In this document: positions 14,182-37,747 of the stretch, one piece after another
Position numbering within the stretch: the first letter of the stretch is position 1
Layout: the number at the start of each line of letters is the position of its first letter
Assembly: GCA_009773185.1 (NCBI GenBank)
Contig: WPIF01000013.1
Span: 1 to 64,000 of the forward strand
Reading direction: 5' to 3'
Length of the DNA stretch: 64,000 nt
DNA from: Nitrospirota bacterium
GTDB lineage: Bacteria > Nitrospirota > Thermodesulfovibrionia > Thermodesulfovibrionales > UBA1546
The notes under the pieces: generated by a model
Told to the model about the DNA's origin: nothing
The model's input: the letters and a program-made list of their open reading frames with translations, nothing else
The model's database searches: none
Position numbers and translations under genes: made by a program

Positions 14182-15424
14182 ATGGCTGAAATTATTCCTT
14201 TCAGAGGAATTCTCTACAATGTGTCCAGGGTTTCAGGAGAGGATACCGTTGCCCCTCCTTACGATATTATTACGCCTGAATACAAAGAAAAGCTTTACAA
14301 CAAAAGCCCATACAATATTGTCAGGATTGATTTCGGTAAAGAGCTTGCCGGAGATAATGAATCAGAGAACAAATATAAAAGGGCTTCTGAATTTTTTAAC
14401 TCCTGGCTGAAAGATGGGATATTGCTCAGAAGCAAAAACCCGGTATTTTATGCCCATGAAATAGAGTATAAAATTAAAGGAAAACTTAAAAAGCTCAGGG
14501 GATTTTTTAGTCTGGTCAGGCTCGAAGAACTCGGCAAGGGCAATATACATCCTCATGAGTGCACACACTCCAAACCCAAGGCTGACAGGTTAAATCTTAT
14601 GAGGTCATGCAAGGCAAACATCAGCCCGATATTTTCACTTTACAACAGCCCTGAGAAAAAGGCGTCAGAAGTTATAAAAAAAGTGGCAGACAGGGAAAAA
14701 CCCTATATTGAGGCTAAAGACCCTGATGGAGCAATGCACAGGCTCTGGATTATAGAAGATAAAAATGATATAGAGACCATAAAAAACGACCTTAAGGACA
14801 GGGCAATTTTTATTGCTGACGGCCATCACAGGTATGAGACAGCGCTGGAATTCCAGAAAGAGCAGAGAGCAAAGAGCAGGGAGCAGGGAGCAGAGAACAA
14901 GCCATGGGATTATGTATTGATGTTTCTTGCAAACATATCCGACGAAGGGCTGACGATACTGCCGACGCACCGGCTTGTCAGGGAGATGCCGGAAAATCCG
15001 TTAGATACGATCTCGGAATATTTTGATATAAAGGAGTTGCCAAAATCTGAGGATATTGCAAAAACCATATACGGGTATAAGAATGCTATTGGTTTTTGTA
15101 AATGCGAAGGGAATAAGAAATATATCCTTAAATATAAGGGCGCCGGGCTTGATGACCTGCATCCTGCCCTGAGAGGGCTTGATGTTACTGTGCTGCATGA
15201 ACTAATATTTAAGAAACTGCTCAAGGTTACCGATATAGCATATGAGATGGATGTCAGGGAGACTGTAAGGAAAGTTAATGATGGGCTTTATGACGCAGCA
15301 TTTTTCCTTAACCCCACAAAGGTTGAGGACGTTGAAAGGGTCGCCCTTTCAGATATGCGCATGCCGCCAAAGTCCACATATTTTTATCCAAAGCTTTTGA
15401 CGGGATTGGTTATAAATAAATTTT

Positions 15425-20315: not shown

Positions 20316-21617
20316 TTAATTTGGCGACCACCGTGGGCCAAAGGCCCTTAACCATGCAGGTGTTATCCTTTTTTGAGATTCTCCGTTTGCTCTCATTATG
20401 TAAATGCCGTTTACCCCTTCCCTGTCAGACGAGAATATTATAAACCTTCCGTCAGGAGAAAATGAAGGGTCTTCATTATTCCCCCTGTCTGTAAGCTGTT
20501 TGAGCCCTGCCCCGTCAGGATTTATAGTGAATATATGATGTTTGCCGGAGCTCCTGCCGACAAAGACAATGTTTTCCCCTGTTGGCGACCAGGCCGGAGA
20601 AGTATTGTATGAGCCTTCAAATGTCAGCCTTCTTACGTCATACCCGTTTTTATTCATTATATATATCTGAGGGGTTCCTCCCCTGTCAGACACGAATACA
20701 ACCAGCTTTCCGTCTGGCGAAACAGAAGGGGAAACCTCTATCCATCTTGTTGAGATTATCCTTATAAGTCTCGAGTCAGAAATCCTTAAGCTGTATAAGC
20801 CATAAGTTTCATCCTTTGATGATGAAAGCATAATCTCGTCTCCGTCAGGGAAAAAGTTGCCGGTCATGTTCAGCCCCTTTGCTTCAAATATATTCCTTTC
20901 TGTCATTTTTGTAAAGTCTAGCAAATATATTCCCCATTTTCCACCCCTCTCGGAAGAATAAAGGAGTTTAGTGCCGTCTTTTGACCAGTGGGGAGTGAGG
21001 ACAAAGTCTCCCTTGATTCCCAGTCTTTTTATCCCTGTACCATCCCAGCCCATTATATAAAGCCCCTTTTTGTCCTCATCCTCTGCAACAAAGGCAATCC
21101 TTGTCCTGAATATCCCGTTTTCTCCTGTTATATGTTTGTATATATCATTCGAAATAGAATGGGCAAGCTGCCTTACTGAACCTTTTTCTCCCTTGTACTC
21201 TTTTTTGAACAGTTCTCTGTTCTCGAATACATCATAGAATGATGCAGTCACTATAAGATTTTGTTCTCCGTTGACATTTCCTTTTACGACAGCCTCTGCG
21301 CCAACAACGGTCCAGTTTTTGGAATTAAATGCCTGTAAAGAACTCTCTATGTACATAGCCCTGTCAAGGCACAGAAAGAAACCCGTGAACTCAAGGTCCT
21401 CTTTTATTATATCCGCAATATTTTTCCCTTCCTTCCCGTTGAATTCCTGAATGGCAATAGGAAGTTTTTTTACTTCAGGAGAGGTTATGTCAACGTATAC
21501 CTTGGCATCGGCAGAATGCAGAATACAGAATACAGAATACAGAATGCAGAATATAAAAAATAATTGTTTTTTATTTCTGACTCCTGACTCCTGACTCCTG
21601 ACTTCTGCGCTCTTCAC
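20316..21617 (-). CDS. tolB: Tol-Pal system beta-propeller protein TolB
   Basis: Periplasmic hub of the Tol-Pal complex, 433 residues. An N-terminal domain (DITSPEVKKLPIAIQEF... as in TolB) is followed by a six-bladed propeller with repeated SPDG/WSPD motifs (PHWSKDGTKLLYSSERGG, VSPDGKLVVFVSDRGGTPQIY, FSPDGRFIIFSSDREG). The start is GTG 21617, overlapping tolA by four nt. Very unusually, residues 4-37, including the hydrophobic core of the signal peptide (FCILYSVFCILHSA), are encoded by two heptamer arrays. The normal TolB sequence resumes at about residue 38. Confidence 0.93.
   Translation of the reverse strand: MKSAEVRSQESGVRNKKQLFFIFCILYSVFCILHSADAKVYVDITSPEVKKLPIAIQEFNGKEGKNIADIIKEDLEFTGFFLCLDRAMYIESSLQAFNSKNWTVVGAEAVVKGNVNGEQNLIVTASFYDVFENRELFKKEYKGEKGSVRQLAHSISNDIYKHITGENGIFRTRIAFVAEDEDKKGLYIMGWDGTGIKRLGIKGDFVLTPHWSKDGTKLLYSSERGGKWGIYLLDFTKMTERNIFEAKGLNMTGNFFPDGDEIMLSSSKDETYGLYSLRISDSRLIRIISTRWIEVSPSVSPDGKLVVFVSDRGGTPQIYIMNKNGYDVRRLTFEGSYNTSPAWSPTGENIVFVGRSSGKHHIFTINPDGAGLKQLTDRGNNEDPSFSPDGRFIIFSSDREGVNGIYIMRANGESQKRITPAWLRAFGPRWSPN
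21511..21609 (-). repeat. Paired heptamer arrays encoding the TolB signal peptide
   Basis: On the plus strand, six units of GCAGAAT/ACAGAAT (21511-21552), a 22-nt AT-rich spacer, then five units of TTCTGAC/TCCTGAC (21575-21609). CAGAA in one block is complementary to TTCTG in the other, in register, giving a periodic imperfect hairpin. The whole element lies in the tolB 5' coding region. Confidence 0.85.
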
Positions 21618-24976: not shown

Positions 24977-26863
24977 TCAGTGAACTGATGCGAGAGTGGA
25001 GAGAAATGCCTTGCAGTTTTGGTAAATCCCTTCTTCATCAATCCCGTATTTCTTTCTCAGTATCGCCTGAGAACCCTGCTCTACGAATTCGTCCGGTATT
25101 CCGAGCATCTTTATTTTTATATCATGAATATCCGCGCTGTTAAGATATTCAAGGACTGCGCTGCCAAAACCTCCGGCAATTAAATTCTCCTCTATCGTTA
25201 CTATTTTTTTTATTCTTGATGCAATTGAAAAAATAAGCCCCTTATCCATCGGCTTAACAAACCTCGCATTTATGACCGCAGCCTTTATGCCGTCCTTTTC
25301 CAGCCTTGCTGCTGCATTGAGCGCCGGATAAACAGTATTGCCTATGGCTATCAGCGCTATGTCCTCTCCCTCTTTTAAAATCTCCGCCTTCCCTGTTTCG
25401 ATAGCTGATGGCTGATAGCTGATGGCTGATAGCTGACTAACCTTCCCCCTCGGATATCTTATTGCTGACGGCCCGTTGTATTTGAGACTGAAGTCCAGCA
25501 TGTCCTTAAGTTCATGTTCATCCTTTGGAGCCATGACAGCAAGGTTCGGGATATGCCTGAGATAGGAGATATCAAAGACCCCCTGATGGGTCGGCCCGTC
25601 TTCTCCCACGATACCGGCCCTGTCTATTGCAAAGACAACAGGGAGATTCTGGAGACAGACATCATGTATAATCTCATCATACCCGCGCTGGAGAAAAGTA
25701 GAGTATACCGCAACCACAGGCCTCAGCCCCTGAACTGCAAGGCCGGCTGCAAATGTCACGGCATGAGGCTCTGCGATGCCTACATCATAAAACCTGTCCG
25801 GATATTTCTCTGCAAAACACTCAAGCCCTGTCCCTTCCCTCATCGCTGCCGAGATAGCAATAATCCTTTCATCATGCCCTGCAAGTTCTGTAAGGACATG
25901 CCCGAATATTTCACTGTATGAAGGGATTTTCTTATTGCTTATGGGGTCTCCTGTTTCCACCTCAAACGGCCCGACGCCATGAAATATGCAGGGGTCTTTT
26001 TCAGAGAACTCATAGCCTTTGCCTTTTTTTGTGATAACATGCACTAGTGTAGGGGCATCTGCATTTTTTATCTTTTTAAATGTCTCGATGAGGAGTTCTA
26101 TATTGTGCCCGTCTATGGGGCCGATATAATTAAACCCGAGTTCTTCAAATAATATCCCGGGCAGGAAAAGCCCCTTTAGTGTCTCTTCTGCCTTCTTTGC
26201 TATTTTGGAGAAAGGCCCTCCAAGCTTGGGAATGCTTTCGATGAATGACTTTGTTTCCTTCTTGAATTTCTGATACAGGTCGCCTGTCAGTATTCTGTTG
26301 AGATATTCAGATAAGGCCCCGACATTCTGTGATATGGACATCTCGTTGTCATTTAAAACTACAATCAAGTCCTTCTTCAGATGCCCGGCATGGTTCAGTC
26401 CTTCAAAAGCAATCCCTGCTGTTAAGGCGCCGTCTCCTATCACAGCTATTACCTTAAAATTCTCTTTCTTTTTATCCCGTGCCGTTATAATGCCAAGTGC
26501 AGCAGATATTGATGTTGAGCTGTGCCCTGTTCCGAAAGAATCATGGATGCTCTCATCTATCTTCGGGAAGCCTGAAATTCCTTTATGCTTTCTGATTGTC
26601 GGGAATTTTTCAAATCTTCCTGTAAGGAGCTTATGGGTGTATGACTGGTGCCCTACATCCCATACAATCTTGTCAGACGGCGAATCAAAAATATAGTGAA
26701 GCGCCAGTGTCAGCTCTACAACTCCGAGGTTTGAGGCAAGATGCCCTCCGTTAATGGATACACGCTCTATTATTATCTCTCTCAGTTCTTCAGCAAGGTC
26801 TTTTAACTCTGCGGGAGACAGGGTCTTGATGTCGGTAGGTGATTTTATGTTTTCTATAGGCAT
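24977..26863 (-). CDS. dxs: 1-deoxy-D-xylulose-5-phosphate synthase
   Basis: Thiamine-diphosphate enzyme of the MEP isoprenoid route; condenses pyruvate and glyceraldehyde 3-phosphate. 628 residues. Motifs: GGHLASNLGVVELTLALHYIFDSP, WDVGHQSYTHK, the GDGALTAGIAFEGLNHAG ... LNDNEMSIS cofactor motif, the transketolase core RAGIVGEDGPTHQGVFDISYLRHIPN, and the C-terminal transketolase domain. A heptamer array inserts [11 protein letters not shown] at about residues 476-488, between PRGK and the TGKAEILKEG strand, where other DXS proteins have a short linker. It lies downstream of ispA, separated by a repeat element. Confidence 0.97.
   Translation of the reverse strand: MPIENIKSPTDIKTLSPAELKDLAEELREIIIERVSINGGHLASNLGVVELTLALHYIFDSPSDKIVWDVGHQSYTHKLLTGRFEKFPTIRKHKGISGFPKIDESIHDSFGTGHSSTSISAALGIITARDKKKENFKVIAVIGDGALTAGIAFEGLNHAGHLKKDLIVVLNDNEMSISQNVGALSEYLNRILTGDLYQKFKKETKSFIESIPKLGGPFSKIAKKAEETLKGLFLPGILFEELGFNYIGPIDGHNIELLIETFKKIKNADAPTLVHVITKKGKGYEFSEKDPCIFHGVGPFEVETGDPISNKKIPSYSEIFGHVLTELAGHDERIIAISAAMREGTGLECFAEKYPDRFYDVGIAEPHAVTFAAGLAVQGLRPVVAVYSTFLQRGYDEIIHDVCLQNLPVVFAIDRAGIVGEDGPTHQGVFDISYLRHIPNLAVMAPKDEHELKDMLDFSLKYNGPSAIRYPRGKVSQLSAISYQPSAIETGKAEILKEGEDIALIAIGNTVYPALNAAARLEKDGIKAAVINARFVKPMDKGLIFSIASRIKKIVTIEENLIAGGFGSAVLEYLNSADIHDIKIKMLGIPDEFVEQGSQAILRKKYGIDEEGIYQNCKAFLSTLASVH
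25400..25435 (-). repeat. Heptamer array (AGCTATC/AGCCATC) inside dxs
   Basis: Five alternating units AGCTATC and AGCCATC on the coding strand. It uses the same unit and the same translated phase (LSAISYQ) as the array in uvrA. Confidence 0.88.
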
Positions 26864-27923: not shown

Positions 27924-29486
27924 TTATTCCCACTCAATCGTGCCCGGAGGTTTCGAGGTAATGTCGTAGACAACGCGGTTTACGCCTTTGACTTCGTTTA
28001 TTACCCTGTTTGAGATCTTGCCAAGAACGTCATACGGAATCTGTGCCCAGTCAGCAGTCATGCCGTCAACGCTGGTTACAGCCCTTACTGCAATAACATT
28101 ATCGTAGGTCCTTTCGTCTCCCATAACGCCGACACTTTTTACAGGAAGCAGGACTGCGAATACCTGCCAGATTTTATCATAGAGGCCTGCTGCCCTTATC
28201 TCTTCAAGGACTATCACATCTGCCTTTCTCAAAATATCCAGCCTTGTTTTTGTTATGTCGCTTATGCATCTTATTGCAAGGCCCGGGCCCGGGAACGGGT
28301 GACGGTTTATTACCTCATCCGGCATGCCGAGTTCATGGCCCAGTACCCTTACCTCGTCTTTAAACAGTTCCCTTAACGGCTCGATGAGTTTCAGTTTCAT
28401 CTTCTTTAAAAGCCCCCCGACATTATGATGGCTCTTTATTGTTGCTGACGGGCCTTTAAAAGAAACACTCTCTATTACATCCGGATATAATGTCCCCTGT
28501 GCAAGGAAACTTACATTTTTAATCTTCATTGCCTCTTCGTCAAAAACCCTTATGAACTCATTGCCTATTATCTTCCTTTTTTTCTCAGGGTCTGATACGC
28601 CCTTTAGTTTTTTAAGGAACCTCTCTGAGGAATCAACGTATTTTATCTTCATGTGGAAACTTCTCTTCAGCATGCTTTCCACTTTTTTTGCCTCATCATG
28701 CCTCAGGACGCCGTTATCAACAAATATGCATGTGAGTGCATCGCCTATGGCCTCATGGACAAGCACTGCTGTGACAGAGGAATCCACGCCTCCGCTTATT
28801 CCGCATACAACCCTCTGGTTCCCGACTTTTTCCCGTATCTCTTTTTTGGCAGTTTCTATAAAAGACTTCATTGTCCATGCCGGCTTGCTTCCGCATATCC
28901 TGAAAACGAAATTCCTTATTATCTCTCTGCCTTTTTCTGTATGGACTACCTCGGGGTGGAACTGGAGCGCATAGAATTGCCTCTTCCTGTTCGCCATTGC
29001 CGCTACAGGAGAGTTTTCTGTATGCGCTATCGCTGTAAAACTTTCAGGGTATTTTTCTATCCTGTCTCCGTGGCTCATCCAGACAACGGTTTGGCGTTGA
29101 GCGTTCAGCGTTGAGCGTTCAGCGATGCCACTGAATAAGTCTGAATCATCATCAACCAAAAGTTCTGCCCTGCCGTATTCCCTTTTAGCTGCCTTGGCGA
29201 CCTTCCCTCCAAGCATATGCGCCATAAGCTGCATGCCATAGCATATGCCTAATATCGGTACGCCAAGCTCGAATATCTTCATATCAGGTATCGGAGCGTC
29301 TTTGCCATAAACGCTTGAAGGCCCGCCTGAAAGTATTATGCCTTCAGGCCTGAAGTTTCTTATTTTTTCAAGAGATGCATTATAAGGAAATATCTCTGAG
29401 TAGACGTTATTTTCCCTAACGCGCCGCGCAATGAGCTGGGTATACTGTGAGCCAAAGTCCAATACAAGGATTTTATCTTCAAGCAT
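27924..29486 (-). CDS. guaA: GMP synthase (glutamine-hydrolysing)
   Basis: Converts XMP to GMP. The class I glutaminase domain has the nucleophile in [15 protein letters not shown] (about residue 83) and the His/Glu pair in [13 protein letters not shown]. The ATP pyrophosphatase P-loop is [12 protein letters not shown] near 224-235, followed by FVDNGVLR, and the dimer domain ends GTIEWE as usual. 520 residues. A heptamer array adds [12 protein letters not shown] near residue 120-131, in the loop before [14 protein letters not shown] at 29495-29500 (minus strand) ends eight nt before the ATG and no Shine-Dalgarno is seen, suggesting a leaderless message. Confidence 0.97.
29094..29128 (-). repeat. 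Heptamer array inside guaA
   Basis: Units GCGTTGA, GCGTTCA, GCGTTGA, GCGTTCA and GCGATGC on the plus strand; translated in frame on the minus strand between the GAT domain strand and VVWMSHGD. Confidence 0.85.
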
Positions 29487-35721: not shown

Positions 35722-36438
35722 ATGCATATACCTGACGGATATTTAGGGCCTTATACTTACGGCGGATTGTGGGCAGCTATAGTGCCAATCTGGATTTACG
35801 CCTCAGGAAAAATCAAAGAGACCTTAAAGGCATCTCAGGTTCCGTTCCTTGCATTAAGCGCTGCGTTCAGTTTTGTCATCATGCTGTTTAATGTGCCGAT
35901 ACCCGGAGGCACAACAGGGCATGCAACCGGCGCAACCTTGATTGCTATATTAATCGGGCCATGGGCTGCCATTATTGCAGTTTCAATTGCTTTAATAATC
36001 CAGTCATTCATGTTTGGAGACGGCGGGATTACTGCCATTGGCGCAAATTGTTTCAATATTGCATTTGCAGATGTGCTTGTTGGGTATGGGATATACAGAT
36101 TAGTAGCAGGGGTTAGGGGTCAGTCTCCTCAGGCGACCCGCCGAGGCGGGGGGTCAGGGGTTATAAGCACTCGTCATCTGATAGGTGCAGGCGCAGGCGC
36201 ATATATAGGCATTAACCTGGCTGCCTTCCTTACTGCTTTTGAACTCGGCATACAGACTGTTCTCCATGTTGGCACTGACGGAAGGCCCTTATACAGCCCT
36301 TTTCCATTGGCAGTTACAATTCCTGCTATTATGATTGAACATGCAGTCCTGTTCGGGATTGTAGAAGCGGTGATTACCATATTTGTATTAATCTATCTGA
36401 GAAAGTCACATCCTGATTTAATAGGAAGGGGATTATGA
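35722..36438 (+). CDS. cbiM: Energy-coupling factor metal transporter S component CbiM/NikM
   Basis: Membrane substrate-binding component, 238 residues, about seven helices. The N-terminal MHIPDGYL supplies the metal site (His2 with the free amino group), with further ligands in GGTTGHATGATL. A heptamer array with a nested GC-rich module (36109-36163) inserts GVRGQSPQATRRGGGSGV at about residues 130-147, in a loop between helices. nikR upstream favours nickel over cobalt. Eight nt follow the nikR stop; GGCGG is a weak Shine-Dalgarno. Confidence 0.93.
   Translation: MHIPDGYLGPYTYGGLWAAIVPIWIYASGKIKETLKASQVPFLALSAAFSFVIMLFNVPIPGGTTGHATGATLIAILIGPWAAIIAVSIALIIQSFMFGDGGITAIGANCFNIAFADVLVGYGIYRLVAGVRGQSPQATRRGGGSGVISTRHLIGAGAGAYIGINLAAFLTAFELGIQTVLHVGTDGRPLYSPFPLAVTIPAIMIEHAVLFGIVEAVITIFVLIYLRKSHPDLIGRGL
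36109..36163 (+). repeat. Heptamer array with nested GC-rich module in cbiM
   Basis: Two units (GGGGTTA, GGGGTCA), then a 27-nt GC-rich stretch (36123-36149, with CCTCAGGCGA and CCGAGGCGG arms), then two mirror-ordered units (GGGGTCA, GGGGTTA). The GC-rich stretch is related to 37624-37652 in cbiQ. Confidence 0.82.
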
Positions 36439-36788
36439 TAAATTTTAGTAAAAAATTTCAGGCATCCCCTTATAAAAAACTCTGGATAGGAATTGGAATA
36501 TTGATACTCCTTTCTCCTCTGGGCATAATTCTCCCTGAGCTATTTAAGTCAGGAGGCGCATGGGGAGAATGGGGGGCAGAGGGGCTTGAAAAGATAACAG
36601 GATATATTCCGGAGGGGCTGAAAAAGCTGTCTGGCCTGTGGAAAGCTCCGATACCTGCTTATGGATTTTCAGGATGGAAAGGGCTTTTTAAGAGTTCTGC
36701 CGCATATATAATCTCAGGAATAATCGGCGTGGGCCTTGTTGTTCTGGTCTCAATATTAATAGGGAAATTTCTTGCGAGGAAAAAATGA
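36435..36788 (+). CDS. PDGLE-domain metal transporter component (CbiN/NikN-like)
   Basis: A 117-residue protein with an N-terminal helix (IGIGILILLSPLGIILP), a periplasmic PDGLE-like segment (GAWGEWGAEGLEKITGYIPEG) and a C-terminal helix (IISGIIGVGLVVLVSILIG). Such two-helix proteins act with CbiM in metal capture. Four-nt overlaps with cbiM upstream and cbiQ downstream show coupled translation. Confidence 0.85.
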   Translation: MINFSKKFQASPYKKLWIGIGILILLSPLGIILPELFKSGGAWGEWGAEGLEKITGYIPEGLKKLSGLWKAPIPAYGFSGWKGLFKSSAAYIISGIIGVGLVVLVSILIGKFLARKK

Positions 36789-37747
36789 CAATTCCTGAGT
36801 GGCTCAAACAAAAAACAGAGCATGGCGCACAGAGCAGAGAGCATGGGAAGGCAAAGGAACGGTTTCTTGATAAGACACTGAGGGACATAGTCTCTTTCAC
36901 GGAAAATACAATGTTCAATGAGACGACTTCTTTAAAAAATGGGTTTTTACAGAGCGTTGAAACAAGGCTTAAGGTTCTGACCATCATGTTTTTTATAATA
37001 TTATTAAGCCTTCAAAAAAGCATTCTCGCCATAGCAGTATTTTCCCTGGTCTCATTGGCATTAGCCCTTATCTCAAGAATACCAATGCTCCTTTTTATAC
37101 AGAGAATTCTGCCTGCTTTCTTTTTTACGCTTTTAATTTCTCTGTCTGCAACCCTGAATGTAATTGTACAGGGCGAACCTTTTGCAAATCTTTACAGGTT
37201 CAGCAAGTTATACAGCATTGGAGGCCTCACAATCCCCCGGGAAATCTATATCACAAAACAGGGGCTCTTAAGCAGCCTTACTCTTCTATTAAGAGTAACA
37301 GCATCTGTTTCCCTGGTTTTTCTGCTTACACTGACAACCCCGCCAAATAAATTTATCAAAGCGGTTTCATCTTTTATGCCGGGCACATTCAAGTCAATCG
37401 TGTCGATGAGCTACAGGTACATATTTTTTCTTGTAAGGAAGGTTGAGCAGTTTATAATGGGCTTTAAATCAAGAAACATATCAGCGGCATCTTACGGAGT
37501 CACCGGCCGGAAATGGGTTGCCTCAAGGATGGGGCTTTTGTTTTCGATAAGCCTCAAATTGAGCGCAGAGCTTGGGCAGGCCATGGAATCAAGGGGATAC
37601 AGGTATGAAAATTTCAAATTTTTCGCCTCAGGCGAACCCGTCCGAGGCGGGCAAATTTCAGATTTCAAATTTTCAATGGCTGATATAACGTGGATAATCT
37701 TCAGCGTAATATTTACAGGAGCAATAATTTGGAAATCTTTGATGTAG
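36785..37747 (+). CDS. cbiQ: Energy-coupling factor transporter transmembrane protein CbiQ
   Basis: T component of the ECF metal importer, 320 residues. Four to five helices (ETRLKVLTIMFFIILLSL, VFSLVSLALALISRIPM, then FFFTLLISLSATLNV and so on), and the coupling motif region RYIFFLVRKVEQFIMGFKSRN...AMESRGYRYE. Two in-frame insertions come from repeats: one at residues about 11-22 (heptamer array 36819-36846) and one near residues 275-297 with a nested GC-rich module. It overlaps cbiO by 19 nt. Confidence 0.92.
   Translation: MTIPEWLKQKTEHGAQSREHGKAKERFLDKTLRDIVSFTENTMFNETTSLKNGFLQSVETRLKVLTIMFFIILLSLQKSILAIAVFSLVSLALALISRIPMLLFIQRILPAFFFTLLISLSATLNVIVQGEPFANLYRFSKLYSIGGLTIPREIYITKQGLLSSLTLLLRVTASVSLVFLLTLTTPPNKFIKAVSSFMPGTFKSIVSMSYRYIFFLVRKVEQFIMGFKSRNISAASYGVTGRKWVASRMGLLFSISLKLSAELGQAMESRGYRYENFKFFASGEPVRGGQISDFKFSMADITWIIFSVIFTGAIIWKSLM
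36819..36846 (+). repeat. Heptamer array near the 5' end of cbiQ
   Basis: Four units AGCATGG, CGCACAG, AGCAGAG, AGCATGG, in frame as part of TEHGAQSREHG ahead of the first conserved segment. Confidence 0.75.
37609..37673 (+). repeat. Heptamer array with nested GC-rich module near the 3' end of cbiQ
   Basis: AAATTTC-type units (37609-37623), a 29-nt GC-rich stretch (37624-37652, CGCCTCAGGCGA ... CCGAGGCGGG), then AAATTTC, AGATTTC, AAATTTT (37653-37673). The organisation mirrors that in cbiM. Confidence 0.82.

Follow-up and report, generated by a model that had tools for sequence, protein, structure and literature searches.

A probable very small double-hairpin mobile element nested in phase within heptamer arrays of cbiM, cbiQ and other genes of a Nitrospirota bacterium

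The SDR elements of Nostoc, as reportedly described by Elhai et al. 2008, are 21-27 nt long and form hairpins with compensatory changes; they are also said to be often embedded in tandem heptamers and to have been inferred to be recently mobile. To our knowledge, such smallest of mobile elements were previously known only from (heterocystous) cyanobacteria. In other groups, the Rickettsia palindromic elements (RPE) are palindromic repeats lying in frame in housekeeping genes, the double-hairpin elements (DHE) and GC clusters of mitochondria are short GC-rich double hairpins that are thought to be mobile, and elements of the IS200/IS605 type carry hairpins and insert without duplication through the single-strand transposition of a Y1 transposase. 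Precise insertion into a pre-existing sequence has been described for SDR5, which lies between the third and fourth bases of HIP1 (PMC4390886), and the palindromes of REP/RAYT systems, with sizes of 20-40 nt, reach high copy numbers (PMC3733652). Heptamer arrays as such are already known from several phyla, including TAACTGA in Beggiatoaceae (PMC4679880), GGGAATC in Xanthomonas and GGGGA(C/T)T in Nostoc (PMC4692102), and GGACCGG in Geobacter (PMC2700814).

The stretch of DNA analysed here (the window, 64,000 nt of contig WPIF01000013.1 from a Nitrospirota bacterium) holds two neighbouring cobalt transport genes, both on the + strand as are all their features, in which a short GC-rich module interrupts a heptamer array. 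The first gene, cbiM (35722..36438), was identified by Pfam (PF01891, E = 3.1e-54) and orthologue alignment as encoding the substrate-specific membrane subunit of cobalt transport. Its period-7 array has the left half GGGGTTA GGGGTCA (36109..36122), continues in phase with GGGGTCA GGGGTTA (36150..36163; sequence and phase scoring), and is unbroken in the orthologue of the related genome G001 (L057). Between both halves lies module 1 (36123..36149), a 27-nt copy of the GTC type, GTCTCCTCAGGCGACCCGCCGAGGCGG, that matches our covariance model with 45.8 bits, keeps the phase and is exactly missing from the G001 orthologue; it is made of a first palindrome, GTCTCCTcAGGCGAC, and a second, CCGCCgaGGCGG, and codes for part of GQSPQATRRGG. 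The second gene, cbiQ (36785..37747; Pfam PF02361, E = 9.5e-22, and orthologue alignment), encodes a cobalt transport membrane protein and has the left array half AAATTTC AAATTT (37609..37621; period 7, with a module-free array in G001, L028) and the right half C AAATTTC AGATTTC AAATTTT (37652..37673), in phase according to sequence and phase scoring. Module 2 (37622..37651), of the TTC type and 30 nt long, TTCGCCTCAGGCGAACCCGTCCGAGGCGGG, matches the model with 52.6 bits, is common to genome G002 and not present in G001, consists of TTCGCCTcAGGCGAA and CCCGtCCgaGGCGGG, and codes for FASGEPVRGG; as a single strand it folds into two hairpins (-9.9 kcal/mol, z = -2.46). Removing the modules leaves the cbiM and cbiQ arrays in register, and both reading frames stay open through the inserts. 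The original prediction of modules lying inside these heptamer arrays, with array on both sides and both genes in frame, was thus borne out, with one correction to the stated length of 27-29 nt, the modules measuring 27 and 30 nt.

The arrays are a true feature of the host genome and not the product of chance. A 462-kb sample, on which all array statistics are based (motif and covariance-model searches were genome-wide), contained 28 period-7 arrays against none in Markov shuffles, while periods 2-6 and 9-13 gave 0-1 arrays each and period 8 gave four. Like the STRR of cyanobacteria and the heptamer arrays of other bacteria, these are short arrays of seven-base units found in many places of the genome; unlike them, they comprise many different heptamers per genome, are often found in genes and hold a nested element. 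An unbiased scan of the sample for arrays resuming in phase at period 7 after an insert returned four GC-palindromic inserts, namely both window copies and those at C20:63121 and C20:132695, together with three AT-rich or low-complexity inserts; the same scan of the sample at periods 5, 6, 9, 10 and 11 gave no match with a GC-palindromic module.

The module belongs to a dispersed family. In the window CCTCAGGCGA occurs twice, against 0.10 occurrences expected from shuffles, and the exact motif has six occurrences in the 2.79-Mb host genome, where a search with a covariance model built from twelve module variants (CM R1) detected about 55-59 copies. The model also found matches in 15 of the 16 genomes of the host's bacterial family (Thermodesulfovibrionales, Nitrospirota), many of which are draft or environmental assemblies; some of the model's distant matches, those scoring under about 20 bits, may be false positives. 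Forty-five genomes sampled from other families of the order did not contain the exact motif. In a scan of 85k genomes the low-GC matches with array context belonged to Nitrospirota; many of the matches fetched came from high-GC genomes, and chance GC-rich matches were set aside. As far as seen, the family is confined to Nitrospirota.

The unit of the family is a pair of abutting GC-rich palindromes. Copies of the TTC type, 28-30 nt long, have the palindromes TTCGCC..GGCGAA and YCCGCC..GGCGGR, and those of the GTC type, 27 nt plus a following G, have GTCNCC..GGCGAC with a one-base overlap with the second palindrome. Compensatory changes in the outer stem pairs support the two hairpins: in a set of 56 distinct sequences, palindrome 1 has TA as its outer pair in 36, GC in 15, CG in three and AT in one, pair 1 of palindrome 2 is TA in 27, CG in 25 and GC in two, and its pair 2 is CG in 43 and TA in 13. 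Palindrome 1 commonly has a T.C mismatch at its fourth pair, a weak point of the stem. Two adjacent GC-rich hairpins make the module similar to the mitochondrial DHE, with the reservation that the minimum-energy fold of the GTC type is an alternative single hairpin; DHE and GC clusters are organellar and lack heptamer arrays, whereas the module is bacterial.

Nesting within arrays was examined on 59 copies, whose joined flanks were scored for a period of 7 or 8; 20,000 random places handled alike served as the null. Twenty of the 59 copies split a phased period-7/8 array at a null frequency below 0.005 (0.3 expected), and 17 did so at the stricter threshold of 0.001 (0.06 expected). The phase offset that best joined the flanks was the same within each type in all 20 cases (GTC 13/13, TTC 7/7), even though the host arrays have unrelated units (GGGGTCA, AGAATTC, AAATTTC, AGCTCTC, AAGTCAG, GATTTGA, GCAGCTT, AGCTATC and GGGCTGA). 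By eye, the junctions are the same for copies in other genera (L248, L249, L259, L271, L272). Three of the 20 arrays holding a module have period 8 and are equally clean, so that a fixed 7-bp target duplication masked by the array period can be ruled out; empty sites, moreover, do not lack a unit.

The orthologues provide such empty sites at base resolution. In G001 the cbiM array reads GGGGTTA GGGGTCA AGGGTCA GGGGTTA, is exactly 27 nt shorter and has no module, while in the same loop G008, G007 and G025 have no array and G003 has, on the other strand, an independent module (L270). In cbiQ, G001 has an AAATTTC-like array without the module that the host genome (G000) has in common with G002. 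The aroE module was found in the host genome only among the family members aligned; module-free arrays are present in eight relatives, comprising G001 and G003, which are exactly 30 nt shorter (GGCTCTCAGCCCT|CAGTCC... and AGCTATCAGCTAT|CAGCTATCAGC), and six others, whose arrays repeat either the same unit or different ones; four further relatives have neither array nor module. Likewise the queC module is restricted to the host genome among the family members aligned, and G003 reads GGGGTTA GGGGTCA AGGGTCA GGGGTCA there, with the 27-nt module missing. Because orthologues keep the array without the module, and some more distant relatives have no array at all, these comparisons directly support the predicted order of events, array first and module second, the module-free arrays proposed as a check being found in cbiM, cbiQ, queC and aroE. 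Some copies must predate the split between the host and G002, since these two genomes have in common the modules of cbiQ and of the CCA/poly(A) polymerase gene. The comparison of orthologues shows, so far as aligned sequences can record the event, that modules were gained at sites already holding a period-7 array and were joined in cleanly, without duplication or deletion of the target site and with the array register kept.

Within genes this joining respects the reading frame. Seventeen of the 20 array copies lie in long open frames and all 17 have a length that is a multiple of three, extending to the family what had been predicted for the two window genes. The proportion among copies that are noncoding or unclear is 15 of 32 (P = 1e-4), coding status having been judged by open reading frames and backed by Pfam for twelve genes. 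All in-gene array copies, including those in DnaX, AroE, QueC and TrpE, are 27 or 30 nt long. The hosts confirmed by Pfam are, in addition to CbiM and CbiQ, shikimate dehydrogenase, QueC, a family 3 glycoside hydrolase (NagZ-like), CCA/poly(A) polymerase, a lipid A acyltransferase, anthranilate synthase component I, DnaX, a radical SAM enzyme of the CofH/MqnC type, uracil-DNA glycosylase and a heptosyltransferase. GTC-type copies on the coding strand usually encode SPQATRRG. The three remaining array copies, C11:9905, C31:122 and C41:74798, seem noncoding. Insertion in frame within protein genes is a trait in common with the RPE, which are several times longer than the module; we know of no RPE nested in heptamer arrays.

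Taking these results together, we consider it probable that each module is one copy of a tiny mobile element, dispersed in the host's bacterial family, that was gained cleanly at pre-existing arrays and that, from its behaviour, would be among the smallest mobile elements known. Under this explanation, the element would move in trans as a folded single strand, of DNA or RNA hairpins, a form suggested by the fact that stem pairing is kept by compensatory changes despite sequence drift and by duplication-free joining. No cellular function would be needed, and the module would most likely be a selfish or neutral passenger.

The closest known counterparts of such an element are the Nostoc SDR elements. 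Like them, the module has hairpins kept by compensatory changes, is often found in tandem heptamers and was precisely inserted into pre-existing sequence, as the empty orthologue sites attest. Its usual length of 27-30 nt is slightly above the range reported for SDR elements; unlike these, it is found in another phylum, is built of two abutting palindromes and often lies in frame in housekeeping genes. The module would then work like an SDR element, of which it may be a Nitrospirota double-hairpin variant. Titles and abstracts of the literature on Nitrospirota heptamers and palindromes yielded nothing relevant. SDR-like elements would thereby extend to a second phylum, distant from the first, in which empty sites are resolved to the base and many relatives are at hand, and it would become directly testable how a gene-less 30-nt element without target duplication moves. 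The finding would also describe how essential bacterial proteins may acquire peptides in two steps, a heptamer array being followed by a hairpin module.

Why arrays are favoured is a separate question. The original prediction held that the module targets arrays, which accords with the very strong enrichment in phased arrays and with the exact motif, all six genomic occurrences of which lie in arrays (five with a clear period of 7, one with a weak period of 8), but not with the two thirds of all copies that lie outside phased arrays; that modules occur mostly outside arrays is therefore literally the case for the diverged family, though not for copies with the exact motif. Copies outside arrays are located within other repeats or in plain intergenic DNA. 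Some are cleanly inside other repeats, three times between CCTCCTT and AACCAAGGAGGGG and twice in GTCATTCCCG...CGGGAATCCAG, and in relatives modules are found within a GTCATTGCGA..GCAATCTC repeat. We also noted modules nested in the dispersed repeats GTCATTCCCG..CGGGAATCCAG and GTCATTGCGA..GCAATCTC at L226, L237, L009, L010 and L013. Of 25 distinct sites holding the TTC type, 11 are T^CA or T^AA, where 4% would be expected (P = 1e-9); the count includes array sites, which are not independent of array composition. TCA precedes five of 16 GTC-type copies. Because heptamer arrays in this genome are often TCA-rich and lie in dispensable loops, we favour a preference for the site combined with tolerance as the likely cause of the enrichment. 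Two features would make arrays frequent recipients of the element: they are rich in the site that it appears to prefer (T^CA in the TTC type, often TCA^G in the GTC type), and they lie in dispensable loops where an insert of 9-10 residues may be tolerated.

A simpler reading invokes tolerance only, insertion taking place at short TCA/G-like sites anywhere and arrays merely marking dispensable loops, with no targeting of arrays. This reading, which is compatible with the mobile-element explanation, is a real contender that we rate at somewhat less than even. Copies outside arrays and within other repeats speak for it, as do the visible frame filter and the position of in-gene array copies in variable loops, of unequal length from one orthologue to the next. 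Two facts sit less easily with it: three array copies look noncoding even though arrays make up a very small share of the genome, and most in-gene copies are in arrays and not in other kinds of loop. More tentatively, and we would lean against it, a dedicated and so far undescribed Nitrospirota process may precisely join 27-30-nt double hairpins into heptamer and octamer arrays serving as landing pads, thereby writing new peptides of 9-10 residues into essential proteins.

With regard to what moves the putative element, duplication-free insertion is a property in common with elements derived from IS200/IS605, and together with the hairpins it would fit single-strand transposition by a Y1 tyrosine transposase, of which the host genome has three genes (Y1_Tnp). 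Beside the left end, where such elements have a fixed tetra- or pentanucleotide target, the module has the base preference given above, T^CA or T^AA for the TTC type and a preceding TCA in five of 16 GTC-type copies. It nevertheless seems improbable that the module is a REP/RAYT or IS200/IS605-type element moved in this way. No module flanks any of the three Y1_Tnp genes, and no RAYT gene flanked by modules was found, nor any association of such genes with the modules across the family. There is no conserved tag beside the palindromes, inspection by eye of the flanks of all copies having revealed neither GTAG nor CGTC at a palindrome end as in REP/RAYT systems, and the module is intragenic where REP sequences are extragenic. 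Across the family, G010, G014 and G009 have 34, 20 and 15 matches with no Y1_Tnp detected, their incompleteness being a caveat, whereas G004 has seven Y1 genes but five matches. Lacking flanking modules and any association with copy number, a Y1/RAYT transposase was rejected as the mover. A reverse transcriptase was rejected as well, RVT_1 being undetected in the module-rich genomes G001, G007, G010, G011 and G014; in G010 and G014 neither gene was detected, with the same caveat of incomplete genomes in both comparisons. Separately, a Y1 transposase-like gene at L088 (C30:47697) adjoins a long tandem array whose units resemble AAATTTGAGGGTCAAAGAG.

Less probable still is ectopic gene conversion between arrays, copying the whole block of array, module and array. 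The near-identical blocks of cbiM and queC (GGGGTTA GGGGTCA, module, GGGGTYA GGGGTTA) are what such copying would produce, but most copies lie in unrelated heptamers (AAATTTC, AGCTCTC, AAGTCAG, GATTTGA, GCAGCTT) with the same junction, and relatives hold a module-free array at the same place. An ancestral origin of the modules, followed by loss in relatives, is very improbable: it would suit the cbiQ and CCA/poly(A) polymerase copies common to the host and G002, but not the aroE and queC modules confined to the host among the family members aligned, and it would need exact, register-restoring excision many times over. That the modules serve the cobalt operon as a functional RNA or as a terminator hairpin, to which the GC-rich hairpins might point, is scarcely credible, given that the modules lie in frame within open genes of unrelated function, have no T run after the stem, no Rfam match to a known RNA family, and no conserved position or structure in the cobalt operons of relatives.

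Some minor observations concern the arrays themselves. Module-free period-7 (and period-14) arrays occur in the window at 1157-1189, 14857-14900, 21511-21607, 25400-25436 and 29094-29124, and a degenerate heptamer stretch, GAGCATGGCGCACAGAGCAGAGAGCATGG, at the N-terminus of cbiQ (36820-36850) codes for EHGAQSREHGK, with unrelated sequence there in G008 and G003. One and the same orthologue loop may hold arrays of very different units in different genomes, as seen in aroE (L297-L307), cca (L276-L286), queC (L310-L323) and cbiM (L057-L068), where the units include TCAGCTA, TCAACCT, TTCAAAG, TTCACTA, GGGGTCA and a six-base TAAGGC array. It looks as if arrays were repeatedly rewritten in place, a process for which we know of no mechanism. 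Another palindrome, CTCCCGATATTCATCGGGA, lies in phase within an AAATTTC array in the cbiM of G009 (L060), and further hairpin families may thus nest in arrays. In the queC of G015 (L316) a single palindrome, TCCGCCGCGGCGGA, is found within a TTCAAAG array.
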